Source: Bacteroidia bacterium
GTDB taxonomy: Bacteria > Bacteroidota > Bacteroidia > Flavobacteriales_D > Cryomorphaceae
NCBI GenBank assembly: GCA_030427905.1
Contig: JAUICL010000002.1
Span: 248,001-312,000, forward strand
Length of the DNA stretch: 64,000 bases
Direction of reading: 5' to 3'
The first letter of the stretch is position 1. The number at the start of each line of letters is the position of its first letter. Position numbers and translations under genes: made by a program. The notes below the pieces were generated by a model. The model had not been told where the DNA came from. It made no database searches and was given only the letters and a program-made list of their open reading frames with translations. Shown one piece after another: positions 11,501 through 43,820 of this stretch.

Positions 11501-12549
11501 CCTAGGGGAAAGTCATCAGAACTAGTGGTCCCAAAAACGTAAAGGTTTCCCAAATCATCGACGATAATGCTGTGGGGTAAATCATCGCGTCCACCACCGA
11601 GATAGGTGCTGTATACAAGTGATGTGCCGTTTAGAGCAAATTTTGTGATCGCAATATCGGTACCAGCGCCGTTCGAGCTTCCACCGGCCCAATCGGTTTG
11701 GTAGGCTCCGGAGGTGGTGGGGTACTCGGTACCAAAAGCGGAGCTTCCTGAGTAGAGGTGTCCGTCGAGGTCGAAAGTAGCGGTGAAGCCAAAGTTGTCA
11801 GTCCCAGACCCACTGTATGTGCTGAAAATGAGTTCCGGATCGATAATGAGATCGATGGATGGGTCATAGCTTCCCAAGTCGAAGTGGAGTTTACGTCCGT
11901 TGAGTTGGTATGCGCACTCCACCACTTCTATTCGACCATTTCTCACCTGATAGGCAAAAGGTTTTGATTCAGTAATGGTGCCTACAGATGTCTCGATGAC
12001 GAGCTGTCCTTTCTCATTTGTTTTCGGCTTCACGCCGTCGTACACGAGTTCAATTTCGGCAACATTCCCGCCAGGGTGCACGATAAAGTCGTATTTGGTG
12101 TTTCCCTTTTGGTAAATTTTCAGATCAATATGGTCATAGACTTTTTGGAAAGTGATTCCATCATAGCCCTTTAGATTGCTTCCCCACTTTGAAGGGTCAT
12201 TTCCTTTGAAGTAATTGTAAGAGCCTGTGACTTCGGTACCTGCTTGCACTGAATAGTTCTCACGGGCATTTGCCAGGGAGATGGTGTAGGCATGGCAGGG
12301 TAGCTTTTTAGGAATGGGTATATCCATGCCGCCGCCGTGAGCAGCGTTCACGCTATTGACGGTTTCTTGGTCGTAAAGATCAAAGGTGAGGGTAGTACCT
12401 TCCAGATAGAGTTTTCCTCCGGGAAGATCTTTTGCAAAAAGCACGCGATCAGGCCATTGCCCCCCGTTTTCGACAAATCTATTCTGGGCCTGTGCCAGAT
12501 TGGACAGGACGCTGAACAGAATGGCTATGACGATGGCAATTTTTCTCAT
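8521..12549 (-). CDS. large T9SS cargo protein, SBBP repeats, PKD-like domains, type B C-terminal domain
   Basis: Predicted cell-surface or secreted protein of 1342 residues. The start at 12549 gives the signal peptide MRKIAIVIAILFSV...AQAQ. Then follow a conserved N-terminal domain often preceding SBBP repeats (about 20-240), beta-propeller SBBP-type repeats with STYLGG motifs (about 240-700), PKD-like domains with pairs of Cys (about 780-1200), and a C-terminal gliding-motility-associated (type B sorting) domain with FTPNGDGENDQLWV and YNRWGEEVF. Its TAA overlaps the PorP/SprF ATG. As family knowledge, such cargoes can be adhesins or matrix proteins; the ligand is unknown. Confidence 0.9.
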   Translation of the reverse strand: MRKIAIVIAILFSVLSNLAQAQNRFVENGGQWPDRVLFAKDLPGGKLYLEGTTLTFDLYDQETVNSVNAAHGGGMDIPIPKKLPCHAYTISLANARENYSVQAGTEVTGSYNYFKGNDPSKWGSNLKGYDGITFQKVYDHIDLKIYQKGNTKYDFIVHPGGNVAEIELVYDGVKPKTNEKGQLVIETSVGTITESKPFAYQVRNGRIEVVECAYQLNGRKLHFDLGSYDPSIDLIIDPELIFSTYSGSGTDNFGFTATFDLDGHLYSGSSAFGTEYPTTSGAYQTDWAGGSSNGAGTDIAITKFALNGTSLVYSTYLGGGRDDLPHSIIVDDLGNLYVFGTTSSDDFPLGANPAQDQFNGGTPFTPQGIGVNYTEGSDMIVSRLSPSGTALEGSTYLGGTGNDGINSNSQLKYNYADEMRGEIELEPSGNVVIGSTTLSDDFPIVGSPYQSVKGSGQDGVIVELTPDLSSIVTSTYFGGNGDDAIYSIHCTSDSRITVAGGTRSSDLPTDGGSYQEDFEGGRADGFVARFENNASDLFRVTYLGSSSYDQIYFVDVDGEGNPHIFGQTEAPDSTFIINADFSNSNSGMLVTSFTPGLTNVNWSTVFGDNENAPNLSPTAFSVDICNHVYLSGWGGGPNNNPNYGGPMTTTNGLTVTDDAIKSTTDGNDFYFMVMESDASALTFATYFGGNTSQEHVDGGTSRFDRTGKIYQAVCAGCGSNDDFPIEPPNAWSPTNGSPNCNLGVAKIDFILPLVFADYESTPACLPDPVEFNNTSTVNTEGNPNYQWIFPNDDIVMEENPSYFFDTPGVYDVTLIITDPLACNISDTITHQVEVFPEIVLSIDDVQSCTESTFDLEISNNGAGTYFEWAEDINFNSIIEEGPTDSLITYTGDEQIMIYIRVSNENCDKIDSVLVSPAPSLTLDTEDVLLCSIQEYPVQALVTGGYDLTTVIWQPDNKIIEGQNTTNVLLDADEPISLSVDITTEFGCDLSASAQVDVYPIELEVTEDTLACVNNPIDLVANSNGWAESFVWSDTPDFSNILNPSGDSTITIIPTSIVHYFARVENNGCVLIDTVAVSLLSAGTTVSADQYICLNDTALIFVSNDFPGSQLAHTWSPDEYIISGQNTSFIRVFVEEPTTFTVVSETEFGCSVENSSTVYLSPLGGQEVDAHADPIHLLEGDISQLSGTPDYSDYLYHWDPPTYLTTPVGRNTTSQPDETITYTLTIIDQDPLGVCVRTDSVTLFVYEAFCGEPNIFVPNTFTPNGDGENDQLWVRGYGVITSMEFVIYNRWGEEVFATNDLNQGWDGTYKGDLAEPAVYVYYLRARCAEGEEYFKKGNVTLLR

Positions 12550-12633
12550 GGCTAAAACACGGGAAAATACAAAAATCGGAGAAAGCACGTTTTTTTAACA
12601 TCCGTTCATCCTCGGATTTTTATACATTGGTAT

Positions 12634-13182
12634 ATGCGCCCTTTTGATAAGTACTATAGAATCTTGGAATTACCGATCGGTGCATCGGATCTGGAAATCA
12701 AAAAGGCGTATCGCGTTTTGGCTAAAAGGTACCACCCAGATCGAAGCCGTACAACAGATACAAGAGAGCAGTTTGTCGCCATTAGCGAGGCTTACGAGAT
12801 ACTGATGCGTAAGGATCAATACGTTTTAGAAGCCATCCAGCGATACCAAAAAAAGTATGGTGGGGCTCAACGAAGTTCTCATCAACCCGAACCGCCAAAT
12901 AGGGCCGATTATCAAGAGCGTGCAGCGACCTACGCCGATATGAAATTTAAGGAGTTCGAGAAGACGCCAATTTACAAGACGGCCATTGTGGTCAACTCAG
13001 TTTTTAACTATTTGATGATAATAGTGGGTTTGACGATGGTTTTCTCACCTGTAGTCCGTTATTTTGGGATGGGAGGAACGTTCGAGTCAAAACTGCCGAG
13101 TCTTCCACAATTTATTTTGCCATTTGTCCTTGGTGTTGGATTCTTGCTCGGGCTGTGGCACTTCGTTTTTAAGAATGAATAA
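12634..13182 (+). CDS. membrane-anchored J-domain protein
   Basis: Co-chaperone-like protein of 182 residues. An N-terminal J-domain (residues 5-70) has the HPD motif at 34-36 inside RYHPDRS, which should stimulate a DnaK ATPase. There is no Gly/Phe region or zinc domain. The C-terminal half has two predicted membrane helices (about 115-145 and 155-180), so it is a tethered J-protein, J-domain on the cytoplasmic side. It ends 11 bases before the S46 peptidase gene on the same strand, so the two are probably cotranscribed. Its client is unknown. Confidence 0.85.
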   Translation: MRPFDKYYRILELPIGASDLEIKKAYRVLAKRYHPDRSRTTDTREQFVAISEAYEILMRKDQYVLEAIQRYQKKYGGAQRSSHQPEPPNRADYQERAATYADMKFKEFEKTPIYKTAIVVNSVFNYLMIIVGLTMVFSPVVRYFGMGGTFESKLPSLPQFILPFVLGVGFLLGLWHFVFKNE

Positions 13183-13193
13183 ATAATCTAAAT

Positions 13194-15413
13194 ATGTTTT
13201 CGAGATTCAAATCATTGGGAATCACCTTTCTATTAATTGTCACATTTCCACTCGCCAATATGGCGCACGAGGGAATGTGGATACCATCTACACTGGCTAA
13301 GCTTGTGATTGGAGATATGCAAGATGCTGGCTTGCGCTTGACTGCGGAAGAAATATACAGCATCAATCAATCGAGTTTGAAGGATGCGATCGTGCATTTT
13401 GGTGGAGGCTGTACGGCGAGCGTAATTTCAGAAGATGGCCTGATTTTGACAAACCACCACTGTGGGTATGGTCAAATTCAGTCGCATTCATCGGTAGAAG
13501 CCGACTACCTAAAAGATGGTTTTTGGGCCATGGATCGATCGCAGGAATTGCCGAATGAAGGGCTTGCGGCCACCTTTGTGGTGCGCATTGAAGATGTGAC
13601 AAAGACCATGCTCAAAGCGGCTGGTGATCTCGAAGGCGACGAATTGAACCAAGCTCTTGCTGCTCAGGCTAAAAAGCTCCAAGACGAGGCTGTAGCTGGT
13701 ACGCAATACGAGGCTGAAGTAAAGCCGTTTTTCTACGGAAATGAGTACTATATGATCGTGACCGAAACCTACCGAGATGTGAGATTGGTTGGTGCACCAC
13801 CTTCTTCAGTTGGGAAATTTGGTGGGGATACCGATAACTGGATGTGGCCGCGTCATACGGGCGATTTTTCGCTGTTTCGAATTTATGCTTCTCCAAATAA
13901 CGAACCGGCTTCTTATAGTGAAGAAAACGTTCCGTTTAAGGCCGATCGCCATCTCGCCATCAATATGGAAGGCCTTGAGCCAGGTGATTTCACCATGGTT
14001 TTTGGTTTTCCTGGAACTACGGAGCAATACTTGACGAGCTACGCGGTAGACTATGTAGTCAATATTGAAAACCCGGCAAAAATTGATATGCGTGAAGCCA
14101 GTCTCAATGTCATTGACGCTGCGATGGAAGCGAGCGACAAAACGCGAATCCAATATGCAGCTAAGCAATCGCGTATCAGCAACGCATACAAGAAGTGGAT
14201 CGGCCAAAGCATGGGCCTAGAGCGCTACGATGCAATAGGCACCAAGAAAGCTCATGAAGAGAAATTTGTTCAAATGGCTCGAAGCACCAAAGGCTATGAA
14301 GGGATGCACAGTTTGATGTCGGATTTTGAAGTACTGTACACCAAGAGTAGAGACGTAAAGCTAGCCCGAAATTATTTGATTGAGATGTATTACTACGGAC
14401 CAGAAGTCATTCGGTTTGCGCAGCGCTTTGGAAAGATCGCTGGAACTCATGAAGAGTTTACGGATGAAGAGCTTCAAGTTGAACTCAATAATTTGGTAGC
14501 TGGTGTGGACGGATTCTACAAGGATTACGATGCCCAGGTAGATCGGGATATATTCAAGGCACTTTGGCCACTTTTTGATGCTGGATGTCCTGAGATTTTA
14601 AGTTCTGCTACAGCTGATAAGTATCTGGCAGATCTAGAAAAGCTTGATGCGAATGTCAACAAACTGTACGAAGACTCCTTTTTTGATGATAAAGATGAGC
14701 TGGTAGATGCATTGGACAATAAGAATCCGAGAAAATCGGTAAAGGCCATCGTTGAAGACCCGCTATTCCAAATAGGGTGGCAGTTGCTCGAGGCCTACCG
14801 TGGGGGCGTGCAAGTGGGTTACGGAGAGTATCGCAATGAAGAAGATGCCATGATGAAGGTTTATCTCAAAAACTGGATGGCTTTGATGCCACTTGAGACG
14901 TACTCACCAGATGCAAATAGCACTTTGCGACTTACTTATGGTAAGATGGAAGGTTCGGAGCCAGTAGATGGGGTAGAGTACCAGCCCTATACCACTATGG
15001 ATGGAATCGTGAGCAAGTACATTCCGGGTGATAAGGAGTTTGATGTACCACAAAAACTATTGGATTTGCACGCCAACCAAGACTATGGGAAGTACGCCAC
15101 AGACGGCGAACTGCGCGTATGCTTCTTGGGTTCTAACCACACCACAGGTGGAAACTCAGGAAGCCCTGCTATTGATGCTAATGGAAATTTAGTCGGTTTG
15201 AACTTCGACCGCACTTGGGAGAGTACCATGAGCGATATCATGTTTAGCGAAGAGATTTGTCGAAACATCATGGTTGATGTGAAGTACGTTCTATTTATCG
15301 TAGATAAGTATGCTGGTGCAGGGCATCTAGTGGAAGAAATGGACTTGATCTGGTCGTCGAAAGCAGATAAATTGCAGATACCAGAAGAAGCCCAGCAAGA
15401 AGTGATGGACTAG
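13194..15413 (+). CDS. S46-family dipeptidyl-peptidase, DPP11-like
   Basis: Periplasmic serine exopeptidase releasing dipeptides from peptide N-termini. The 739-residue protein has an N-terminal signal, the catalytic-His block NHHCG (87-91), and the nucleophile block GGNSGSP with Ser655. Eighteen residues after that Ser is Arg673 (in NFDRTWE). From family knowledge, Arg at this site marks the Asp/Glu-specific DPP11 type, Gly the DPP7 type, and the P. gingivalis DPP11 numbering (S655, R673) is identical. Substrate preference is therefore predicted to be acidic P1. It lies in a likely operon with the J-domain gene. Confidence 0.93.
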   Translation: MFSRFKSLGITFLLIVTFPLANMAHEGMWIPSTLAKLVIGDMQDAGLRLTAEEIYSINQSSLKDAIVHFGGGCTASVISEDGLILTNHHCGYGQIQSHSSVEADYLKDGFWAMDRSQELPNEGLAATFVVRIEDVTKTMLKAAGDLEGDELNQALAAQAKKLQDEAVAGTQYEAEVKPFFYGNEYYMIVTETYRDVRLVGAPPSSVGKFGGDTDNWMWPRHTGDFSLFRIYASPNNEPASYSEENVPFKADRHLAINMEGLEPGDFTMVFGFPGTTEQYLTSYAVDYVVNIENPAKIDMREASLNVIDAAMEASDKTRIQYAAKQSRISNAYKKWIGQSMGLERYDAIGTKKAHEEKFVQMARSTKGYEGMHSLMSDFEVLYTKSRDVKLARNYLIEMYYYGPEVIRFAQRFGKIAGTHEEFTDEELQVELNNLVAGVDGFYKDYDAQVDRDIFKALWPLFDAGCPEILSSATADKYLADLEKLDANVNKLYEDSFFDDKDELVDALDNKNPRKSVKAIVEDPLFQIGWQLLEAYRGGVQVGYGEYRNEEDAMMKVYLKNWMALMPLETYSPDANSTLRLTYGKMEGSEPVDGVEYQPYTTMDGIVSKYIPGDKEFDVPQKLLDLHANQDYGKYATDGELRVCFLGSNHTTGGNSGSPAIDANGNLVGLNFDRTWESTMSDIMFSEEICRNIMVDVKYVLFIVDKYAGAGHLVEEMDLIWSSKADKLQIPEEAQQEVMD

Positions 15414-22502: not shown

Positions 22503-24248
22503 CTATAGTCGCTGTTTGCGATATGCAACCATCTTTGCAAAAAACTGCTTCTGTAGGCTTAAAATAGCATCAGAAGTACTCTCCCCTGATGTGTGTTCTG
22601 AAACAAATACAAATTTTTGTTTCGTTGAATTAATTCTATTGAGTTCAGTTAACTTTTGGTTTACTACAGTTGCATCTGAGAAAACACTCCTTAGTAACAT
22701 TTCGGCCATTTCTTCACTCCAAATAATATCTTCAGGAATCCGACCAGGAAGGTAATATACATTACTTAAGTAATAGTCCAGAAATGATTTCAATAGTTCA
22801 AGCTGCTGTTCTCGATTACTGCCTCCTTGACCACTATCTACAGAAAACTTAATTTCTACTCCAGTTTGTACTCTGATTTTTGCACTGAGATTTTCTATGG
22901 TTAAGTCAGTTGTCGGAATACTTCGCCAATCGAAGTGTGGGTTTTCTGGATTCTGATCACCATCAAAGAATATGAAATCATGTGAGTCATTCTCTCGGCA
23001 AAACACGGGAATAAACTCCTTTTTGATAACAGATTCCCCACCCGGATTGTATTTCACATTAAACAAGTTTTTTGTTTCACTGCCCATTTTACTTAACACC
23101 TCAGATATAATCTCTTTTGCTAAAATGTCTTCTACAACTATATTTTTTCGATTATCTATCTGGAATTCAATATGAAAGAATGCTTCTTCAGGGGTGAGAT
23201 TCTCTTTTATCAAAAATCTTCCGTTCCTAGGGTTTTGATAAAAAACTTTTATGGCTTCTTTCGGAAGCCCTTTTACAATTGAAGGTGAGTGACTGGTTAA
23301 AACAATTTGATGCTTTTTGCGCATTATCTGATCCAAAAGAAAAATAGTTAGCCTCCTTTGCGCTCCTGGGTGCAGTGAAACTTCCGGCTCATCGAGCAGT
23401 ATCAATGAGTAATCTTCAGCAGTGAGAACTTCCTTAACTAACCTGACAACGGCTATTTCACCGCTGCCAGCAACTGCCTCCGAGTATTTAGCAAAATTCG
23501 TTTGAAACAACACAGAATACCCTTCGTTCCGGAAAAGTTCATGAAACACTGAAACCCCACGTGCATAATCTCTTCCCAGAATAAAAGAAATCCATCGTAA
23601 CTCTTCCGAAGATAAAACATCAACAGGCTTATTTAAGGTTCTCGTACTCGAGTTGATTGTACGTTTCTCACCGGTAAAAATTTTATTAAGCGAAGAAGAT
23701 TTTCTTCTTATGAATTCTTGCTTGTTTCTTGCCCGACTATACTTTAAATTCCCGAAATAGAAGTACTTATCAAATGCACTTAGTTCAGAGCGAAAATCTA
23801 GATAAACAACATTTTTCACAATTGGACTATCTCGCTCATTTCGCCTAGTCCTCATACCCGCCCAAGCCAGAGGTCTGCTCGTTTCCCAATAGTTTGGATC
23901 GTTTTGTCTTTTGATTCTAGCCTTTATTACTTCGCGAGTTTGATCATCTTCCTGAAATGAGTACCAGAATGAATGTCTCTTTCGCTGTTCATCATAATAA
24001 CTAACAGGATCAACTTTTGTATCGAACCAAAATTTATACGGAGTGTAGCCCTCAGGTGCTCCATACAGGGCATGTAAACATGAGCTTTTACCACATCCGT
24101 TTTGACCAATGAACACTGTCAAAGGAAAATCGAAATTTATTCGTGTATCTATTTCTATGTTCCTGTAAAAGGGAAATTTAACGAAGTCAATATACCTCAT
24201 AAATTGTCCAGAACTTCTTATTGTTTGAATTGTCTCTATCAATTCCAT
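22503..24248 (-). CDS. OLD-like AAA ATPase with C-terminal TOPRIM nuclease region
   Basis: Last gene of the four-gene island. The 581-residue protein has an SMC-like ATPase with Walker A GQNGCGKSS (48-56), a Walker B LILLDEPEVSLH and H-loop LTSHSPSIV, as in OLD family enzymes. After it comes a TOPRIM-like region with a Glu in VVEDILAKEII and a DGD in IFFDGDQNP, the expected metal-binding residues of OLD nucleases. It is likely an ATP-controlled nuclease. It starts 6 bases after the stop of the receiver-domain gene and is probably translated with it. A nuclease effector role in anti-phage defence is inferred. Confidence 0.85.
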   Translation of the reverse strand: MELIETIQTIRSSGQFMRYIDFVKFPFYRNIEIDTRINFDFPLTVFIGQNGCGKSSCLHALYGAPEGYTPYKFWFDTKVDPVSYYDEQRKRHSFWYSFQEDDQTREVIKARIKRQNDPNYWETSRPLAWAGMRTRRNERDSPIVKNVVYLDFRSELSAFDKYFYFGNLKYSRARNKQEFIRRKSSSLNKIFTGEKRTINSSTRTLNKPVDVLSSEELRWISFILGRDYARGVSVFHELFRNEGYSVLFQTNFAKYSEAVAGSGEIAVVRLVKEVLTAEDYSLILLDEPEVSLHPGAQRRLTIFLLDQIMRKKHQIVLTSHSPSIVKGLPKEAIKVFYQNPRNGRFLIKENLTPEEAFFHIEFQIDNRKNIVVEDILAKEIISEVLSKMGSETKNLFNVKYNPGGESVIKKEFIPVFCRENDSHDFIFFDGDQNPENPHFDWRSIPTTDLTIENLSAKIRVQTGVEIKFSVDSGQGGSNREQQLELLKSFLDYYLSNVYYLPGRIPEDIIWSEEMAEMLLRSVFSDATVVNQKLTELNRINSTKQKFVFVSEHTSGESTSDAILSLQKQFFAKMVAYRKQRL

Positions 24249-24254
24249 TGAACA

Positions 24255-25937
24255 CTAATGTGGGAGATCAATACCGACACGATGGCCATAACCGAATGAT
24301 TCGTTTGCAATTCTTTGAGCGTAGTTCTCTTTCAGAACAATCAAATGCAGTAACTGTATTTCATGACCACAATAATTTATTTTCAACTGGCTTATATCGT
24401 TGGTTGAAATGTAACTAGTAAAGGGTTTACACTGCCACTTAATGCTCTTCGGTTCATTTTCTTTTAGGATAAAAGAGTGGAAGCCCGTTTCAGCTGCTTG
24501 GATAGCTTGAAGGCCATTAAAGCTTGCTCCTTTTACAAAGTAAAAGTTATCGTTAATATTCTCCGAATGAAGACAATCGCAGGACGGGGTTATACAAAGA
24601 AAATATTCGTTTGGATTGGCCGAATTCAGAAACAGATCCCCAAAGCGCAAGCTCGGATCACTGCGATCAAACACTTTGGATGTGGACACATATGCACAAT
24701 ACTTAATCAATTCATTTACTAGGGTAGTATCTGAGTCTGTAAGCTGCTTTGGAGGTTGGGGTTCTAAAGAATCATAGCGGTGTCCTGCAAACTTCAATAT
24801 GCTTGGCTGTTCGCTTATCTTTTGCTGGTGTAATTCACCTATCCAGCTTTTTAGAATGAAATCATAGATTGCGCGAAGGTCGTAATCTTGTCCATTGTTC
24901 AAAGTTCTATAATTCTCTAAATGGTAGAAGAATGCTTTCTCATCTGTCTTTGAAAACTGTGTACCTATTTTGGAAAACGACTCGCGAAGTCGATCTTTTA
25001 ATTCTAGAGAAAGAATGTTGAGATAGTTATGCGGATTGCTCACAACCGCATTTGCGAAAACAGTGAACAAATTTTCCGGTTTGATACCGTCTTCTTTTTC
25101 CTGTTTATGATAGACAAGCACTATCGTTCCATTCAAGTTAAACGCATGTTCGGCTGTGGTGATACGTTCTATTCGAAATGGTAATTTGATTTCGGATTCC
25201 TGACACATGGCCATCATTGACAACTCCAATAGACCATCGACATGATTTTCATTAATTGTTTTTACTGCAGCAGATACTTTCGCTTTTATCGCGGCTTCTC
25301 CAATTTGCCCTTTTATCGCAAAACTTTTACGAAAGCTTGTCATGAGTTCGGCCTCGGTTTTTTCTCTGTTGTTCCAATTGAAGAAATATTCGTAAAATGT
25401 TTCAGTATTTTCTTCGAGAAAAATATCAGCTTCAATGGAATCCGGGTCATCTGATATAGCAGAGTAGTTTGCCTTGAGGGCAGAAGAAACTGTTTGAAAC
25501 ACATCTGCGTCATAAGGTGAGAACTCCCGTATCAGTGCCTTACTGACTGAATGAAGATCAGCTGTTGATGTATAAACTACTACAAAAGGAATTTTCTTTG
25601 AATTAACGACCTCTGTGAGTATTTTGATGGCGTTGTCAAAATTACCATCTGCGTCAAGCTCCCAATCTAATATGAGAAGATCCTTGTTGGATAACATAAC
25701 ATCACTGTTCCAAGTCTCTTCAAAGGTTGTAAATCGGTAGATATCCAAGTCGCATAAGCCATCTTCACGAAATGATTTGTGAAGCTTTCTCGGTTCATCC
25801 ACAATCCACTCTGAGGGTTCTTCCTCATAAGCTGCAGCATAGCGATCATCTATGCAAATAGCGGAGCGTATTGAGTTCCGAATAACTTCAGTTGCTATAT
25901 CCTCAAACGCGGGCTCGTTTTCTGTAGTTTCGTCCAT
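24255..25937 (-). CDS. receiver-domain protein with large Cys-containing C-terminal region
   Basis: A 560-residue protein. The ATG at 25935-25937 is preferred over an upstream in-frame start because it lies 10 bases after the stop of the two-GHKL gene and leaves a compact N-terminus. Residues 20-145 match a receiver fold: acidic pair Asp30-Asp31 (in AICIDDRY), phospho-acceptor Asp91 (in LLILDWEL) and a switch Thr/Ser at 123-125 (VYTST). The rest is alpha/beta-rich and unknown, with a conserved-looking Cys block CITPSCDCLHSENINDNF near residue 460. It has no DNA-binding domain. It is likely to be the partner of the adjacent kinase-like protein. Confidence 0.8.
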   Translation of the reverse strand: MDETTENEPAFEDIATEVIRNSIRSAICIDDRYAAAYEEEPSEWIVDEPRKLHKSFREDGLCDLDIYRFTTFEETWNSDVMLSNKDLLILDWELDADGNFDNAIKILTEVVNSKKIPFVVVYTSTADLHSVSKALIREFSPYDADVFQTVSSALKANYSAISDDPDSIEADIFLEENTETFYEYFFNWNNREKTEAELMTSFRKSFAIKGQIGEAAIKAKVSAAVKTINENHVDGLLELSMMAMCQESEIKLPFRIERITTAEHAFNLNGTIVLVYHKQEKEDGIKPENLFTVFANAVVSNPHNYLNILSLELKDRLRESFSKIGTQFSKTDEKAFFYHLENYRTLNNGQDYDLRAIYDFILKSWIGELHQQKISEQPSILKFAGHRYDSLEPQPPKQLTDSDTTLVNELIKYCAYVSTSKVFDRSDPSLRFGDLFLNSANPNEYFLCITPSCDCLHSENINDNFYFVKGASFNGLQAIQAAETGFHSFILKENEPKSIKWQCKPFTSYISTNDISQLKINYCGHEIQLLHLIVLKENYAQRIANESFGYGHRVGIDLPH

Positions 25938-25947
25938 ATGTTGAAAC

Positions 25948-28827
25948 TTATTTTGAATCTTTTTCTTTTTTAATGATAAAACAAGCTCCTTTAAATTTGT
26001 TGACATCTTCTTGATTAGACGCAAAAATCTCATAACCAATAGATTGTAGGTTCTTCTTTGCCAGATACAGACCTATTCCGCGACCGTCTCTCTTTCTGGT
26101 AAAAAACAATGTGAAAATGTCTTCTAAGTGCGAATCGTCTATTCGTTCTCCCGAATTCATAATCCGAATTTCATCACCCGCGAGTTCTATTCTTATTTCT
26201 CTGTTTTCAACCGGAATGAGCCAATAGTTCGCGTTGTTAACAATATTCAGAAATATTGGCTTGATGATGGAATCGTAAGTGAAGAACTCATACATACGAA
26301 AGGCGTCGTTTACCGAAAAATCAATTCGATATCTTTTAAAGTCATTTTTGAAAAATTCCTTTATATAGTTTTCTATTTGTCTGCCGGTGATCACTTCTCT
26401 CGTTCTGCGGCTGGTTCTGTATAGTGGTTTGAGCAGTTTATAGTTTCCTTCGAGGTGCTGAAAAGCTCCTTTCAACTGTTTGAATGCTGATTCAATTCCT
26501 TTGTTTTTTCTAGTGTACTGATCAATTTCATTTACAGCATCATTCATTTGGGAGTACATGACATTGAATTGGTGATCGATAATTTCTATTGACATGCCCA
26601 ATTGGGCCAACTCTTCATAGTCGTTCAGTTTCTCTTCCAGGTTTTGGTTTTGCTTTTCGTACCAAGCCCTTAGAAAATCATCATCAACATCTATTTGCAG
26701 GTTCGAAACATGGTTGATGAATCCACCAATGGAGTGTTCAATTTGGCCTTTCTGATCCTCGGCTATCCGATCGAGCAGGCTTATTTTCGCAGATACAGAC
26801 TCGGTATCGTCATCAGCCACAATTTTGGTGTTTTCACTCTGTTCGATGAAATGGTCTACCTGCGCAGTTTGCTCCTCTGATAAGAGGTTATTAACGCGGC
26901 CAAAGGCATCTTTGCAAATAGCTTGATAGCTGGAGAATAGTTTCTCGATGTATTTTATATGAGATCGAAATTTTTCGCTGTATTCGAGTTTTAAGTTTTC
27001 CGAGTTGATTCTGCTTCGTGTGTCTTCAACTAATCTTATGCAAGATTGAACCTTGTCATTAACTACCGCATATTCGTTTTGATATTCTAGATAAGCTTTT
27101 TCCTGAATTTTTGTGATTTTAACAGCTTGGGGTTTGAAGAGTCTCAACCCTCTGATTTGTGCTCTTTTGTCTTCAAGCCTTGAAACGAGTCTGTTGTAAT
27201 TGTTGTAATTAATTTCTAACTGTTTTGCTTCTTCGGAAAGCTGGTCAGCTAAATCAGCTATTTCGTTTTCCAACTGATCGATGAGCGGCTTATTCAGTTT
27301 CAATTGCTCAAGAAATGCCTTTTTCGTTTTAGCATTCTTCTTTTTTGCAGCAGCCTGCTGGCGGTTGTATTTTTCTTGAATTTCCGACAATTGAGTTTGA
27401 CGAAACGTAGCTTCTTCTCCTTCTGGAGTTTTTCGCATGTATCGTTTGGCGATATCTACAAACAAGTCGATTAGGTCTTCTCGGAATTCTCTGTAGGCTT
27501 TGTTCTGAATGAACCCCTCTCTTCCGGCTTTGTCCTTGAGATTGGGATTCTTATCTCTTTTCAAGTCTATATATCCGACAAACCTACGATGAGCAAAGAA
27601 GTAATACCCTGCACCTAAATTGCGTCTCTTTTCAAAATCTAAAAAATCGTATTCGGTACGACCATATGGTAACACACGAAAGCTGTCTCTATAAACATAT
27701 AGTCCTCCGAAGGTCTCCAGCTTATTATTCAATGATCGGAATTGCTCAGGATTTAACAAGGAGCTTTTTTGTTCGCCCTCCAACGACCCCCACTCGAGAC
27801 TAAAAGGGCCATAAGAAGTTTTGCCAGGAGGACGGTTTGGTTTAAAGGAGTATTTCTCACGATGATTAAACACTCTTATCTCTCCTGTAAAAAAGCCGTT
27901 CTCATCAAACTCTCCTTTCAGCCAGTGATCGGCATTACGCATTTCTTCTTGAGTAAAAAACTCATCTATTAAGTCATATTTCCCGGATGCATCGTGTAGA
28001 TAAAAATGAGTCTCAAAATCTTTTTTGGTGTCCTTAAGATCATTGTGCATCCCACTTAGAGATGCTCTCAAATAGGTCAGTGCCGAGTCCTTTTTCAGAT
28101 CAATCCGATCTTTGTTGGATAGTTCAACCAACTGATCATGTGGTGTGAAAATGAGAAAGGTCGTGCCGTGATGCTCTTTCTGCATAAACTTCTGGACAAC
28201 GTCCTCATGCAAAAAGTCTGGTGTGCTGAAAGGCTTCCAATCTTCTAGCATCTGCTGCCTTAATTCCTTTTGCTCAGACCACTGATTTTCATCTAGATTC
28301 TTGAGAAACTCGGCAACGGCTTTCTTTTCATTCGTCTTGAATTCATCATTTGATGTGAATGTAAAGAGAGGAATGTTTAGGTCGTCCAGATAGAAGTCAT
28401 AGTTATCAAGTACTCTCCAATCAATTAATAGAGCATTCGCTTTCTGCCCTTGCTTTTTGGATAGCATTAAGAGCTGATTTCCAAGGTAGGAGACGGAAAG
28501 TCGGCCAATGCCTTTTTCGCCCATGGGAGCTCTTCGTTCAAGCCCAAAATGTGGCTCTAACTTTTCTCCCCTGGCTTTAGAATCGGTTCCGAGGACAAAC
28601 CACTTTTCAAGTATGTCAGTTTCAGACATGCCAAACCCATCGTCTGAAATGAGGAAAACCGGATTTTTATTGTCTTTATATGTTTCGAGGAATAATCGAC
28701 ATTCTAGATGCTTTGCATAAGCATCGTATCCGTTCTTCCAGAGTTCGGTAATAGCTGTTGGGAGGTCGGCAATTTGACCTTTACCCAGAAGTTCTACTGC
28801 TCTTGCCTTTGCTCTGAATTGTGCCAT
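25948..28827 (-). CDS. double-GHKL protein: MORC/HSP90-like N-terminus and histidine-kinase-like C-terminus
   Basis: A 959-residue ATP-binding protein with two GHKL modules. The N-terminal one has Glu28/Asn32/Asp35 (in AITELWKNGYDAY), DDGFGM (62-67) and GEKGIGR (103-109), as in MORC/HSP90/MutL-type ATPases. A long coiled coil follows (about 460-720). Then comes an H-box-like block IEIIDHQFNVM with His752, and a histidine-kinase-type HATPase domain with NIVNNANYW (861-869), NSG (891-893), FFTRKRDGRGIGL (908-920). Known biology links MORC-like GHKL proteins to restriction systems. It overlaps the methyltransferase gene by 34 bases, so translation is coupled. Confidence 0.85.
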   Translation of the reverse strand: MAQFRAKARAVELLGKGQIADLPTAITELWKNGYDAYAKHLECRLFLETYKDNKNPVFLISDDGFGMSETDILEKWFVLGTDSKARGEKLEPHFGLERRAPMGEKGIGRLSVSYLGNQLLMLSKKQGQKANALLIDWRVLDNYDFYLDDLNIPLFTFTSNDEFKTNEKKAVAEFLKNLDENQWSEQKELRQQMLEDWKPFSTPDFLHEDVVQKFMQKEHHGTTFLIFTPHDQLVELSNKDRIDLKKDSALTYLRASLSGMHNDLKDTKKDFETHFYLHDASGKYDLIDEFFTQEEMRNADHWLKGEFDENGFFTGEIRVFNHREKYSFKPNRPPGKTSYGPFSLEWGSLEGEQKSSLLNPEQFRSLNNKLETFGGLYVYRDSFRVLPYGRTEYDFLDFEKRRNLGAGYYFFAHRRFVGYIDLKRDKNPNLKDKAGREGFIQNKAYREFREDLIDLFVDIAKRYMRKTPEGEEATFRQTQLSEIQEKYNRQQAAAKKKNAKTKKAFLEQLKLNKPLIDQLENEIADLADQLSEEAKQLEINYNNYNRLVSRLEDKRAQIRGLRLFKPQAVKITKIQEKAYLEYQNEYAVVNDKVQSCIRLVEDTRSRINSENLKLEYSEKFRSHIKYIEKLFSSYQAICKDAFGRVNNLLSEEQTAQVDHFIEQSENTKIVADDDTESVSAKISLLDRIAEDQKGQIEHSIGGFINHVSNLQIDVDDDFLRAWYEKQNQNLEEKLNDYEELAQLGMSIEIIDHQFNVMYSQMNDAVNEIDQYTRKNKGIESAFKQLKGAFQHLEGNYKLLKPLYRTSRRTREVITGRQIENYIKEFFKNDFKRYRIDFSVNDAFRMYEFFTYDSIIKPIFLNIVNNANYWLIPVENREIRIELAGDEIRIMNSGERIDDSHLEDIFTLFFTRKRDGRGIGLYLAKKNLQSIGYEIFASNQEDVNKFKGACFIIKKEKDSK

Positions 28828-29903
28828 TTATTCCAATGTTCTTGTATAGAAAGTCCTATGGCTTTCGCCAGTTTAGGGGGTACAGCATTGCCAATCATGG
28901 TCGCAATGGCTCCTTTGTTCGTTGAGTGAAAGGTGTAGTTCAATGGGAAAGATTGAAGGGTAGCCCCTTCGCGAAGGGAAATTCCTCGATCTTGCTCAGG
29001 GTGAGAATATCTTCCAGTACTAGTATATAAAAATCGAGTCGTAATAGTTGGAGCCGGCTTACTCCATGCCATTCGCCCATAAACATCATAATGGCCATCA
29101 TGATTTTTATAACACTCTAGTTGAAGTTCTGGATCGTCTGCCCAAGCACTTCTAGATCCTCCGTTCTTGGGTGTTCGCCTTATACGTTTTTGATTCAAAT
29201 CAGATAAGCTTGCGGAAGAATGCAAAAATTCAGAATCATCCCTTGTACCGGCTATTATCTTTGGAAATTGAGAGTAATCACCAATGGCCTGCTCTACTGT
29301 AACTATCTTATCCTTATCTCGTTTTTGCTTAGGTAGCGAGACACTCTTATTAATTCTACTCGCTACAAGGACAAATCTTCTTCTGTTTTGTGGAACTCCA
29401 AAGTACTTTGCGTTCAAAACATTCTGATCAAAAACGTATCCCAGCTTTTTTAATGCAGTTTTAAAACGGTGCAATGGACTTCCTTTTTTTGTCTCCAGTC
29501 CTGGTACGTTTTCGATAAATATGAATCCTGGCTGATAGTAAACAATAAATTCTTTAAAGTCATCCAACAATAAGCGTCCCTTCTTGGATTTCTCTTTATC
29601 AGACTTGAGATTAGAAAAATACTGACAAGGACTGCAGCCTACGAAAATCAAACTATTGTCAAATCTCTTTATCGGCACCAGCTCACTTAGTTTTTCTGGA
29701 GTAAGTGATAGTTTGGAAACATCTTCGTTTATAAACTTAGATTTATTATTGGTCTCATATGTTTTTTTGAACTTCGGATCTATATCCAGTCCACACAGAA
29801 CTTTTACACCAACTTGCTGGAAGCCGCATGTAACACCTCCTGCACCACAGAAGAAATCAACGGCTTTCAGTTCACTGAAATGAGATTCTTGTTTACTTTT
29901 CAA
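28794..29903 (-). CDS. DNA cytosine-C5 methyltransferase
   Basis: First gene of the island operon; transfers a methyl group from SAM to cytosine C5 in DNA. The 369-residue protein has motif I DFFCGAGGVTCGF (16-28), motif IV with the catalytic Cys93 in GCSPCQYFS, motif VI FIENVPG, motif VIII QNRRRFV and the C-terminal IGNAVPPKLA block. The target-recognition region between VIII and IX is of ordinary size, so a single target site is expected. The start codon is TTG at 29901-29903; no in-frame ATG precedes the first motif. No restriction endonuclease of classic type is present beside it. Confidence 0.93.
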   Translation of the reverse strand: MKSKQESHFSELKAVDFFCGAGGVTCGFQQVGVKVLCGLDIDPKFKKTYETNNKSKFINEDVSKLSLTPEKLSELVPIKRFDNSLIFVGCSPCQYFSNLKSDKEKSKKGRLLLDDFKEFIVYYQPGFIFIENVPGLETKKGSPLHRFKTALKKLGYVFDQNVLNAKYFGVPQNRRRFVLVASRINKSVSLPKQKRDKDKIVTVEQAIGDYSQFPKIIAGTRDDSEFLHSSASLSDLNQKRIRRTPKNGGSRSAWADDPELQLECYKNHDGHYDVYGRMAWSKPAPTITTRFLYTSTGRYSHPEQDRGISLREGATLQSFPLNYTFHSTNKGAIATMIGNAVPPKLAKAIGLSIQEHWNKWHNSEQRQEQ

Positions 29904-30294
29904 GTTTCTTATACTTTTTTTATTGGATTCTAATCAATCTCATTCCACAATCGCAATGAAAATAGGACTGACAAGAAGATAATCCCCAATCTAAAATCGA
30001 ATTTGAACGCATCTCTACTCAGATCAAAACCTGATACTTAATCATTACTGAATTTAATAATTGCTCGCGCAATTTTGCTACAAAATACGCAATTAAAGAA
30101 TCTCACATAAGGTTTTGGTTTGCTGCGATACACAATCTGATCTTAATATATCCAATGTACATAAGGTCATCTGCTTTGCTCATACAAATTAGCTGGTCAA
30201 ACATTAAAAGTGGCGAAAACGATTACCCCGATGTTCCTTGCTTCGCTGCGGAAATCGGGATGATCGCGGAGGGGAATCGACAAAACAAAACCCG

Positions 30295-30325
30295 AGTGAT
30301 TGCCTTCTGCAATCACTATTTTTTT
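30295..30325 (+). terminator. terminator-like hairpin on the plus strand
   Basis: AGTGATTGC CTTCT GCAATCACT forms a perfect 9-bp stem followed by A and seven T. No plus-strand gene lies upstream, so it may end a small RNA, or act on the minus strand as a second hairpin of the tRNA trailer. Confidence 0.5.
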
Positions 30326-30370
30326 GCGCTTCGAATCTGCTTAAGAGTGCAACTCTCGCAGATTCGAAGC

Positions 30371-30400
30371 ACAAAAAAACCCAACTCTCAAGCTGGGTTT
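30371..30400 (-). terminator. terminator of the tRNA-Pro transcript
   Basis: On the minus strand AAACCCAGCT / AGTTGGGTTT (one mismatch) is followed by TTTT, 9 bases after the 3' end of tRNA-Pro. Confidence 0.75.
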
Positions 30401-30408
30401 TGTTTTGT

Positions 30409-30482
30409 CGGGGTGAGAGGATTCGAACCTCCGATCTCACGCCCCCCAGACGTGCACTTTAACCGGACTAAGCTACACCCCG
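30409..30482 (-). tRNA. tRNA-Pro, anticodon GGG
   Basis: A 74-base cloverleaf. The acceptor stem CGGGGTG pairs with CACCCCG, starting with the C1-G72 pair typical of bacterial tRNA-Pro. The anticodon stem CACGT / GCGTG carries the 7-base loop CTGGGGG, anticodon GGG. The T-loop GGTTCGAATCC is standard. CCA is not encoded. It lies at the right edge of the AT-rich island, a common integration position, though no flanking copy of its 3' end was found. Confidence 0.95.
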
Positions 30483-40913: not shown

Positions 40914-43712
40914 CTATTCCACTACCACCAGCGTTTTCGTAGCTGAAAAGTCATCAGTTTGAATAAAGATTTGATACAATCCTTGATTCAGATCAGTAAT
41001 GTCAATGGTGTAGGGATTTAGGCCAGCATTGGCATGTTGAGAGCTCGATGCCAAACGTCCACTCATGTCGTATATTTTAACACTAAGAATAGAGTTGAAA
41101 CTTGTTTGGATCGATATTTGAACCATTCCATTTGCCGGGTTGGGATAAACTTCCCAGTCTATATTTCTACTTAAATCGTCTATGCCCGAAACGCAAGCCG
41201 GATCGCTTTCTTCAAGGAAGTAGACCGTAGCTGGACTCCCTGCAATAGCACAAGTAGACCCAGCCAGATCATCTACGTCGGTGTAGACGAAGGCGGTCAA
41301 CTCGTATTCCCCAACAAATGGATCGAAATCGTTGGCTGAAAGCAATCCATTCAAATCGTTGTCGAACGTGTAGGGTAGTTCGACGCCGGTTAAATTGATC
41401 GCGCTGTTGTCATCCACATTAAAAAACTCGATAGCGAGTCCACCGCCTGTTGGGATTTCGGCAGGGGTAGAGACTTCAACCGTTGTGGTTTCTTCTGGAC
41501 AAATAGAGTCGGGACCATCAAGCGCAAGCGATTCAACAGAGCAAGGCTCCGGATCTGCACAAGCTGGATCGTTTTCATCAAGGAAAAACACGGTAACGGC
41601 AGAAGCAGCTACCGCACAAGTAGATCCAGCCAAATCATTTACGTCAGTGTAAACGAATGCGGTCAATTCGTATTCCCCAACAAATGGGTCGAAGTCGTTG
41701 GCTGAAAGCAATCCATTCAAGTCATTATCGAATGTGTATGGTAGTTCGACGCCGGTTAAATTGATCGCGCTGTTGTCATCCACATTAAAAAACTCGATCG
41801 CGAGTCCACCGCCTGTTGGAATCTCGGCAGAGGTAGAGACTTCAACCGTTGTGGTTTCTTCTGGGCAGATGCTATCAGGTCCATCTAAGGTGAGTGATTC
41901 TACAGAGCAAGGCTCCGGATCTGCACAAGCAGGATCGTTTTCATCGAGGAAAAACACGGTAACGGCAGAAGCAGCTACTGCACAAGTAGATCCAGCCAGA
42001 TCATCCACGTCGGTGTAGACGAAGGCGGTCAATTCGTATTCCCCAACAAACGGATCGAAATCGTTGGCTGAAAGCAATCCATTCAAGTCATTATCGAACG
42101 TGTAGGGTAGTTCGACGCCGGTTAAATTGATCGCGCTGTTGTCATCCACATTAAAAAATTCGATAGCGAGTCCGCCACCCGTCGGGATTTCGGCAGGGGT
42201 AGAGACTTCAACCGTTGTGGTTTCTTCCGGGCAGATGGTGTCGGGACCATCTAAGCTGAGTGATTCTACAGAACAAGGCTCACTTGGTTCACATTCAGCC
42301 GTTCCATCTGTACATGTAAGCGCGGGGTATCCGTTTCCAATAGCGTTCGCCACTCCACAGTTGCTTGCTTCATTGATGACGATCAGATAAGTTCCATCTT
42401 CTGTTGCCGTCCAAGTGATAGAACACCCATCTCCATCGCCCGAGCCAGATGCGTCAATAGCTCCACTTGGGGCAATGATTGTGAATTCGGGTACCCATGA
42501 ACCTGCTCCGGGGCCATTGCACATACTAAACGTGTATGTGCCACCGGCCAAAAAACCATCAACTGAATAAGCCTCGGAAGCGAACACTTCAAAGGCATCA
42601 ATTTCATTAAAAGGGCAACCCGAACCATCGTCGCACGGCGCACCACCAAATACGTTATTAAAGTCCGTCCAACCAGTAGTTGGACTCGGGTCTACCCATG
42701 TTTCACAATCATCATCTGAGCCGCCATCTTCGCAGAGTGTCCAGCCCATGTCTTCGAATAGGCCAAGGGTGATGCTTCCCGGATTGTGGATGGCTTCACC
42801 ATTTCCAATTTGTGGTGTCATCAAGCTTTGCGCGTTACCGGGAGGGAATGTAGCTTCATCCCAGTGCGAAAGCGTTGAACCACCGGCGTATTCAGCGGGG
42901 GCGTAGATCTTGGGAGAAACTCCCGAATTTGCCGCTATGGCTTCAGGTGAGTCACAGTACACATTACCGCCTGTGAATGCATCGCCCAAATCTGTTCCTT
43001 GGGGTATATCCACTAGACTGGTTCCGCCGATTCCTTCTGTAAGAAAGTCATCGTACTTAGCTGGAGTGAGTGGGAAACCAAACCCAAGGCTACCTTCTCC
43101 TGTGTCGTCATCGTAGTCTTTTGAAGAAACGAAACCAAGTCCATGGCCAATTTCGTGAAGCACAACTGAAACCAGGTCATATTGTTCAAAAGGGGTGTTT
43201 CCATCGGTGCCGAGATACCAATCGAAGTCGGAGTTGAAACTGGCGTTTATGTCAGGAAAACCTGGGTCGAGATCTTCTCCTGCTATGTGATCGGCCAAGG
43301 CTGACGCGTAGTAGCGCCCGTCTGGGGCATTCGTGAAGTTTCGAAATAGCGTTTCAGGGCCGGCTGAACCCAAAACACCTTCTCCCAAAACCGTCCAGTT
43401 GGCATTTATCTTTATGGTAACAGGGCTGCTCAGAGCATTTTCCCAGATGTCTATAGCTGCTTGAAAAGCGGCCTGAGCTTCAGGGGTAAAGCCAGTATAC
43501 GTCACTTCAAAGGTGGCGCAAGTTTCACCGCCACCACCAAGCGATTCCGTGGTCATCAATTGCCGAATCCACTGAGCTGTTGGGGTATGGTGATGTTCAT
43601 GTCCTTCTCCAGCCGGGCAAACGATGATTGGGCCCGGTATGGACTCCAACTCTTGTGCCTGGGTGGCGGAAAATGCAAAAAGGCCTACGAGTAGGAAGTA
43701 GAGTTTCTTCAT
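40914..43712 (-). CDS. T9SS cargo zinc metalloprotease with three tandem 122-residue repeats
   Basis: Predicted secreted protease, 932 residues. The ATG at 43710-43712 gives a signal peptide (MKKLYFLLVGLFAFSATQAQ). The catalytic zinc motif HEIGHGLGF lies in VVLHEIGHGLGFVSS near residue 200, as in metzincin/matrixin-type enzymes. Then come a prepeptidase-like beta domain and three tandem 122-residue repeats with Cys pairs (GLAIEFFNVDDNSAI...). The end is a type A T9SS sorting domain (VYPNPANGMV...SVKIYDMSGRL). The substrate is unknown. The repeats probably form stalk or binding modules. Confidence 0.87.
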   Translation of the reverse strand: MKKLYFLLVGLFAFSATQAQELESIPGPIIVCPAGEGHEHHHTPTAQWIRQLMTTESLGGGGETCATFEVTYTGFTPEAQAAFQAAIDIWENALSSPVTIKINANWTVLGEGVLGSAGPETLFRNFTNAPDGRYYASALADHIAGEDLDPGFPDINASFNSDFDWYLGTDGNTPFEQYDLVSVVLHEIGHGLGFVSSKDYDDDTGEGSLGFGFPLTPAKYDDFLTEGIGGTSLVDIPQGTDLGDAFTGGNVYCDSPEAIAANSGVSPKIYAPAEYAGGSTLSHWDEATFPPGNAQSLMTPQIGNGEAIHNPGSITLGLFEDMGWTLCEDGGSDDDCETWVDPSPTTGWTDFNNVFGGAPCDDGSGCPFNEIDAFEVFASEAYSVDGFLAGGTYTFSMCNGPGAGSWVPEFTIIAPSGAIDASGSGDGDGCSITWTATEDGTYLIVINEASNCGVANAIGNGYPALTCTDGTAECEPSEPCSVESLSLDGPDTICPEETTTVEVSTPAEIPTGGGLAIEFFNVDDNSAINLTGVELPYTFDNDLNGLLSANDFDPFVGEYELTAFVYTDVDDLAGSTCAVAASAVTVFFLDENDPACADPEPCSVESLTLDGPDSICPEETTTVEVSTSAEIPTGGGLAIEFFNVDDNSAINLTGVELPYTFDNDLNGLLSANDFDPFVGEYELTAFVYTDVNDLAGSTCAVAASAVTVFFLDENDPACADPEPCSVESLALDGPDSICPEETTTVEVSTPAEIPTGGGLAIEFFNVDDNSAINLTGVELPYTFDNDLNGLLSANDFDPFVGEYELTAFVYTDVDDLAGSTCAIAGSPATVYFLEESDPACVSGIDDLSRNIDWEVYPNPANGMVQISIQTSFNSILSVKIYDMSGRLASSSQHANAGLNPYTIDITDLNQGLYQIFIQTDDFSATKTLVVVE
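41190..42290 (-). repeat. three tandem 366-bp repeats in the metalloprotease gene
   Basis: The same sequence recurs with a period of exactly 366 bases: the block ending GTTAAATTGATC ends at 41400, 41766 and 42132. Copies differ at few positions (and at synonymous sites), implying recent duplication or ongoing gene conversion. Confidence 0.92.
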
Positions 43713-43820
43713 GATCTGATGGTTTTGGTGAGTCATTAAAAATATGGAAATACTCTTTTGCTTTGGGATAACTTTTTAACGATGAGACATGTAAACTGCC
43801 TAGACAGCCGTTTTATGCAA

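Follow-up and report, generated by a model that had tools for sequence, protein, structure and literature searches.

A four-gene restriction-modification-type operon with a dual-GHKL kinase and a receiver as putative control pair in a Cryomorphaceae genome

The minus strand of a 64,000-nt stretch of contig JAUICL010000002.1 (assembly GCA_030427905.1, Bacteroidia bacterium, family Cryomorphaceae; positions 248,001–312,000), here called the window and taken from a genome of 3.8 Mb in 13 contigs, carries a compact four-gene operon (22503–29903; Table 1) encoding, in order, a C5 cytosine DNA methylase, a dual-GHKL histidine-kinase-like protein (hereafter the kinase), a receiver protein and an OLD-like AAA protein. 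On balance, this is probably a defence operon of restriction-modification type, with kinase and receiver as the control pair and the AAA protein as the likely nuclease. In the best-supported division of labour, identity and damage would come from methylase and effector, and control from the MORC-like kinase and the receiver. Comparison with related loci suggests that kinase and receiver move between defence operons as one unit. An earlier note, made by reading the DNA of the kinase gene, had proposed a phosphorelay controlled by a MORC-like sensor; the fourth gene and the exchangeable kinase-receiver pair lie beyond what it contained.

Two GHKL modules in the kinase

All three domains recognised in the kinase score above their curated Pfam cut-offs: HATPase_c_3 at 49.3 bits (cut-off 25), HEF_HK at 82.3 (24.1) and HATPase_c at 43.5 (26.4). 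Together with the folds identified by Foldseek and VIA-align, this bears out the view of the earlier note that the gene encodes two GHKL modules of different kinds, joined by a long coiled coil, with His752 in an H-box-like block, which here falls within the HEF_HK match. The motif residues it had named are at the positions given, and each is invariant, well above chance, in an alignment of 82 proteins (the window protein and 81 relatives), part of this conservation being built in, as the relatives were chosen by similarity to the window protein. Invariant positions (82/82) comprise E28, N32, D35, D62, G64, G66, K105, G106 and G108 in the N-terminal module and H752, N861, N865, G893, G915, G917 and G919 in the remainder.

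Structure prediction, which had been proposed as a check on both modules, placed a HATPase fold at the C-terminus and an SMCHD1-like one at the N-terminus, in a model of modest confidence (mean predicted local distance difference test score, pLDDT, 67.1; 9-row alignment). The best solved Foldseek matches include the ATPase modules of MORC2, MORC3 and SMCHD1 as well as histidine kinase ZraS. VIA-align superposed residues 808–959 on ThkA (Z 16.8; 144 residues; root-mean-square deviation, rmsd, 2.8) and residues 2–450 on SMCHD1 (Z 16.0; 320 residues; rmsd 5.0). Helices at 468–534, 573–666, 675–709, 716–772 and 776–803 lie between the two modules. With pLDDT below 50 around His752 (708–762), the HEF_HK profile gives firmer grounds for the helical hairpin than the model does.

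The C-terminal module has the canonical catalytic and ATP-binding fold with N, G1 and G2 boxes, judged from the ThkA alignment and the conserved residues. The G1 box begins with Asn in 66 of the 82 proteins and with Asp in 16. The possibility that NSG in place of DxG marks a degenerate ATPase site was examined and discarded, because ThkA, whose structure was determined with ADP bound, carries the same NSG as the window protein; this Asn is therefore not a sign of decay. The residue following His752 is Glu in 61 proteins and Gln in 21, the window protein among the latter; the acidic residue that follows the phosphoacceptor His in a canonical HisKA H-box is thus absent here, and the protein is not assigned to HisKA.

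At the N-terminus, GHKL motifs I–IV and an S5-like domain are present as in MORC proteins, with K433 being Lys in 81 proteins and Arg in one. The segment 375-GLYVYRDSFRVL-386 has one extra residue before the Arg compared with the MORC S5 motif GhXhhpXXRhl, as given in PMC2292703; with the motif off by one residue, the protein is described here as MORC-like and not classed as a MORC. No relative of the kinase was found on viral contigs, and the three matches to it in phage records were partial, none extending across >80% of the query.

Receiver protein

The adjacent receiver with Asp91, also named in the earlier note, was confirmed. The gene next to the kinase gives a Response_reg_2 match of 66.9 bits (cut-off 27), and in an alignment of 78 receiver proteins D30 and D91 are invariant, position 123 is Thr (65) or Ser (13) and K278 is kept in 63. 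The open reading frame (ORF; 24255–26039) extends back to a TTG at 26039; the Asp91 numbering matches the ATG at 25937. The model (mean pLDDT 90.2; 78-row alignment) aligns with receiver folds at Z up to 10.8 over ~115–120 residues spread across 21–303 (VIA-align), and its secondary structure places a helical insert (residues ~141–255) within the receiver domain, before the fifth strand (271–278).

The C-terminal domain (~404–560) is strongly conserved (G433 and C453, 78/78; D454, 75/78; R553, 74/78; C448, 72/78). Response_reg_2 is the only Pfam domain common to the 78 proteins: Pfam gave no clear match to the C-terminal domain, and no DNA-binding domain at a meaningful score in any of them. 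The VIA-align rows span residues 21–302 only and so say little about this domain; a Foldseek search with it against the PDB and viral models gave nothing under E 0.001, the weak matches including MazF-type barrels (E 0.05–0.26; template modelling score by target 0.54–0.59). Two related loci (L081, 12881–14644; L077, 12916–14486; L numbers denote loci of the comparison below) have the receiver gene broken into two ORFs in an otherwise intact operon.

OLD-like AAA protein

The fourth gene product contains an ATPase domain of the AAA_15/AAA_21 type found in the OLD family, followed by E, GG and DGD motifs that are invariant in 10/10 relatives and align with those of OLD-like TOPRIM proteins from 60 genomes. 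Profile comparison with the latter gave a probability of 98.9 for ATPase plus motifs and E 0.063 only for the C-terminal part alone, for which neither the Pfam TOPRIM model nor a PDB sequence profile search gave a match. From these motifs the AAA protein is likely to be a nuclease. It stops ~16 residues short of its relatives, which have a helix-like C-terminal tail.

Gene content of related loci

The comparison set consisted of 80 loci, picked by similarity from 438 candidates, plus eight full-length loci from genomes of the phylum; after removal of duplicates (L059, L071 and L073) and weak matches (L025–L027), 85 loci were counted. The receiver gene adjoins the kinase gene in 82, the contigs of the other three ending early, and the methylase gene lies directly upstream of the kinase gene in 79, five of the six without it having had room. 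A same-strand gene follows within 250 bp of the receiver gene in 41 of 85 loci having a receiver (duplicates counted). The largest groups of these fourth genes encode Vsr (8), AAA (6, plus the window), HNH_2 (6) and NOV_C (4) proteins, the classes being BLAST clusters of which example members only were scanned with Pfam. Within 4 kb, Vsr-like genes are found in 26 and HNH_2-like genes in 10 of the 85 loci, and some of the HNH proteins encoded by fourth genes are type II restriction enzymes in the PADLOC listing. The conserved His752, Asp91 and both active sites span several phyla.

Other arrangements were seen in single loci or pairs. On a Rhizobium plasmid (L144, 5971–12741) the order is permuted to kinase, receiver, methylase, Vsr. 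In L065 (14491–19319) and L068 (14552–19320) the core is followed by genes for a ~400-aa protein with no Pfam match and a ~1200-aa protein, the L065 copy of which has Ser/Thr kinase and ORC-CDC6-like domains; a 10.3-kb DNA block is shared by these loci at 83% identity across two genera. In L094 (7928–11734) a gene for a 1268-aa SIR2_2 protein, possibly a NAD-depleting effector in the fourth slot, begins 224 bp past the receiver gene.

Exchange of the kinase-receiver pair

Across seven AAA-type loci (21 locus pairs, which are not independent of one another), identities of kinase and receiver rise and fall together (Spearman 0.96), compared with 0.68 for methylase and AAA protein and 0.42 for methylase and kinase. 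Between the window and L115, methylase and AAA protein are 76% and 77% identical, kinase and receiver 33% and 23%. The reverse is seen between L042 and L043, with 89% identity for the kinase, 88% for the receiver and 47% for the methylase, the fourth genes being unrelated (25%); the sole DNA match under default blastn (85.7%; 10000–14539) begins where the kinase gene starts and finishes where the receiver gene ends, and under looser scoring extends back across the methylase gene, still stopping at the receiver stop codon. L029 and L053 share 71% identity in the methylase and 76% in an HNH fourth gene, compared with 40% and 32% in kinase and receiver, while L043 and L115 match at DNA level (87.8%) over the AAA gene alone.

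A profile of the AAA protein, searched against 395 genomes of the phylum, 395 of the class and a viral collection, matched beyond its own genome one locus in the phylum set, three in the class set and one viral contig. L115 and L116 have the four-gene form; in L110 the same methylase and AAA genes flank a gene for an HgiDII/BbrUII-like ATPase, kinase and receiver being absent; in L114 and L117 the methylase gene is directly beside the AAA gene with nothing between. L114 (4972–7908) is the viral-collection contig, with adjacent methylase and OLD-like AAA genes and no kinase or receiver.

Constraining nine AAA-type loci to one clade lowered the log-likelihood by 2158 on the kinase tree and by 89 on the methylase tree and was rejected on both. 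In the broad set, label changes numbered 8 on the methylase tree and 7 on the kinase tree for HNH2, 18 and 15 for Vsr, and 2 and 4 for AAA; these counts exclude 12 of 73 loci whose flanks were too short, as well as loci such as L081 in which genes are short. The idea that the methylase is always paired with the fourth gene was therefore rejected, HNH2 and Vsr labels changing no less often on the methylase tree than on the kinase tree, and the exchange pattern is not universal among the loci. For the AAA-type loci, these comparisons of sequence indicate that methylase and AAA protein form one unit, kinase and receiver another, and that the two combine freely.

Mechanism and alternatives

With two GHKL modules, an H-box-like domain whose His is invariant and an invariant Asp in the adjacent receiver, a phosphorelay is the natural reading, and transfer from His752 to Asp91 is plausible. 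The C5 methylase would mark self DNA; in the kinase, taken to be a soluble protein, the MORC-like ATPase, as a dimer, would close with ATP on either DNA or the AAA complex, and the coiled coil would relay this closed state to the HEF_HK domain and C-terminal ATPase module. His752 would then be autophosphorylated and its phosphoryl group passed to Asp91; the receiver, acting by way of its insert and C-terminal domain, would release or restrain cutting by the AAA protein. If such a relay operates, the pair would therefore be a control cassette and not a transcription regulator of distant genes.

A wider version of this reading, which we regard as possible though short of probable, takes kinase and receiver as a portable phosphorelay cassette inserted between methylase and an exchangeable effector. 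A single kind of His-Asp switch, with a MORC-type DNA clamp as its readout, would then govern many unrelated effectors (OLD-like AAA proteins, HNH nucleases, NOV_C proteins and perhaps SIR2 and kinase-ORC proteins). Coupling would fall to the 110–130-residue helical insert of the receiver, which precedes the fifth strand and lies on the face normally used for signalling.

Several observations weigh against control of a nuclease by an exchangeable kinase-receiver pair. The TOPRIM assignment of the AAA protein is based on motifs plus a single profile comparison, and the methylase tree, like the kinase tree, rejects a single AAA clade, with L096, a NOV_C locus, falling inside. Gln follows His752 in the window, where canonical H-boxes have an acid. 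In many pairs of Bacteroidota loci the homologous block comprises methylase, kinase and receiver and ends at the receiver, so in these loci the methylase goes with the kinase and not with the fourth gene. Finally, the three full-length plasmid loci inspected, out of 64 records, have no recognised nuclease beside the core, except for Vsr in one, so the core may cut alone or may not cut at all.

The last two points lead to an alternative that we consider unlikely, in which the three-gene core is a complete restriction system, the receiver C-terminal domain or the middle of the kinase is a phosphorylation-gated nuclease and the fourth gene is optional. DNA blocks that run from methylase to receiver end and then stop, the Pseudoalteromonas and Pantoea plasmid loci, with three core genes and no annotated nuclease near, and the strong conservation of the receiver C-terminal domain all fit this scheme. 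Set against it, no nuclease family was found in that domain, the 78 proteins having only Response_reg_2 in common by Pfam and the Foldseek matches, MazF-type barrels among them, being weak, with the caveat that a missing profile match does not mean a missing enzyme.

An equally improbable scheme dispenses with phosphotransfer: kinase module and receiver would be ATP-driven interaction modules and the protein a MORC-like structural DNA clamp. In L110 the HgiDII-like ATPase occupies the same place without kinase or receiver, which indicates that a MORC-type ATPase can work without them, and the Gln after His752 would also fit. However, a dead relay would have no need of His752, Asp91 and the rest of both active sites, which are conserved in several phyla. 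Slightly less likely still is an ordinary cytoplasmic two-component system controlling transcription of the defence genes, for which the conserved His, Asp and ATP site speak, but none of the 78 receivers gave a meaningful Pfam match to a DNA-binding domain, the N-terminus carries a MORC-type ATPase and not a usual sensor, and the pair is located within the operon that it would control.

If the proposed relay between kinase and receiver is real, restriction would be under a His-Asp switch gated by stress or DNA state; this would account for the ability of bacteria to keep potent nucleases inactive and would connect MORC clamps of the eukaryotic type with a signalling output. Three swap pairs (L042/L043, window/L115 and L029/L053) are natural chimeras for separating specificity, effector and control.

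Genomic context

Table 1 Features of the four-gene operon in the window
Feature	Position	Strand	Details
C5 cytosine DNA methyltransferase gene	28794..29903	-	369 aa from TTG; first operon gene
Dual-GHKL histidine-kinase-like protein	25948..28827	-	959 aa, ATG start; HATPase_c_3 + coiled coil + HEF_HK + HATPase_c
N-terminal MORC/HSP90-like GHKL ATPase domain	28396..28758	-	residues 24-144; Pfam HATPase_c_3; Foldseek MORC2/MORC3/SMCHD1
HEF_HK domain with His752 (codon 26572-26574)	26404..26604	-	residues 742-808; Pfam E 3.6e-23
C-terminal histidine-kinase ATPase domain	25969..26259	-	residues 857-953; Pfam HATPase_c; ThkA Z 16.8
Receiver protein, Response_reg_2 + helical insert + C-terminal domain	24255..25937	-	560 aa from ATG; Asp91 codon 25665-25667
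OLD-like AAA ATPase, fourth gene, candidate nuclease	22503..24248	-	581 aa; Pfam AAA_15, AAA_21; PADLOC ATPase-Toprim_I-B
TOPRIM-type motif stretch of AAA protein (E373, GG403-404, DGD429-431)	22953..23141	-	residues 370-432

The methylase gene, which overlaps the start of the kinase gene, gives a Pfam DNA_methylase match (E 9.2e-57) and an NCBIfam dcm match above cut-off. From the components of a type II restriction-modification system, a DNA methylase gene is thus present, with the AAA/TOPRIM-like protein, co-inherited with it, as candidate endonuclease partner; PADLOC and NCBIfam scans of the whole proteins gave no system name for the operon.

G+C content is 0.37–0.40 across 22–30 kb, compared with 0.43–0.49 in most of the window (about 0.45 nearby); one further 2-kb bin is low (32–34 kb, 0.39). 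A tRNA-Pro gene (30407–30482) lies directly upstream. In a sister genome trxB, tRNA-Pro and a flavoprotein gene are conserved, and the place of the operon, between trxB and the tRNA gene, is taken by a TonB-receptor-like gene. HEF_HK matches are rare: the genome containing the window is the only one of eight in the family to have one, and one of 11 of 395 in the phylum above cut-off. This low-G+C island, the different gene content of the sister genome and rarity in family and phylum indicate that the operon was probably acquired horizontally. A direct repeat of the tRNA end, as a mark of integration, was searched for and not found. Nested inverted repeats beside tRNA-Pro (30278–30410; arms of 22 nt and 16 nt with 95% and 100% complementarity) are probably terminators. 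Elsewhere in the window, the ORF list includes a 940-aa protein (40914–43736, minus strand) with three near-identical repeats of ~130 residues each.

Comparison with known systems

In the OLD, GajA, PtuA and AriA proteins the ATPase and collinear E, GG and DxD motifs are shared with the fourth gene product of the window, which differs in lacking a Pfam TOPRIM match and in having a methylase as its partner instead of GajB, PtuB or AriB. Gating of a nuclease by a GHKL ATPase has been proposed for VcSduA, a GHKL-nuclease Shedu protein, ATPase-dead and nuclease-dead mutants of which lose phage defence; unlike in the window operon, its nuclease is in the same chain and, from the available text, it is without kinase, receiver or methylase (PMC12137116).

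MORC and paraMORC1–5 proteins (Iyer et al. 2008, PMC2292703), as far as described in the accessible parts of that study, occur in restriction systems and share with the window protein an N-terminal GHKL ATPase plus beta-rich domain, methylase and nuclease neighbours and a patchy horizontal spread; they are without the histidine-kinase module and receiver of the window system, and their S5 motif differs by the one residue mentioned. The BbrUII/HgiDII family (NCBIfam NF050001) has the same N-terminal GHKL type, and a protein resembling it is encoded in L110, flanked by the methylase and AAA genes; however, the family model matches the window protein over residues 10–141 only, and its 54.8 bits fall below the cut-off of 550, as do the 246 bits of the L110 protein.

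The closest known system is the HEF_HK/Response_reg_2 pair (PF19191, PF19192) of Bellieny-Rabelo et al. (2021, PMC8011034), with which the window shares the HEF_HK profile match, the adjacent Response_reg_2 gene, the nearby C5 methylase and the domain order HATPase_c_3, HEF_HK, HATPase_c, the main form (group 1, 174/222). Within the portions of that paper available, HEF_HK genes are reported beside Response_reg_2 genes and linked to restriction-modification genes, above all C5 methylases; a cytoplasmic phosphorelay tied to restriction-modification is proposed, as a prediction only, and the link to paraMORCs is made. The suggestion in the earlier note that this layout is unusual for a restriction system does not stand, as it is the commonest architecture of this published family. 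A literature search, with most subscription papers and preprints outside its reach, turned up no experimental work on any HEF_HK protein. The neighbours named in the same portions (HNH_2, Vsr, MvaI_BcnI, EcoRII-C, HSDR and ResIII) do not include an OLD-like AAA protein as found in the window, nor are swaps of the kinase-receiver pair between methylase-effector pairs reported there, in contrast to the present comparison. What these sequence comparisons suggest as new relative to the published family is its modularity, with a kinase-receiver pair exchangeable with respect to methylase and effector.

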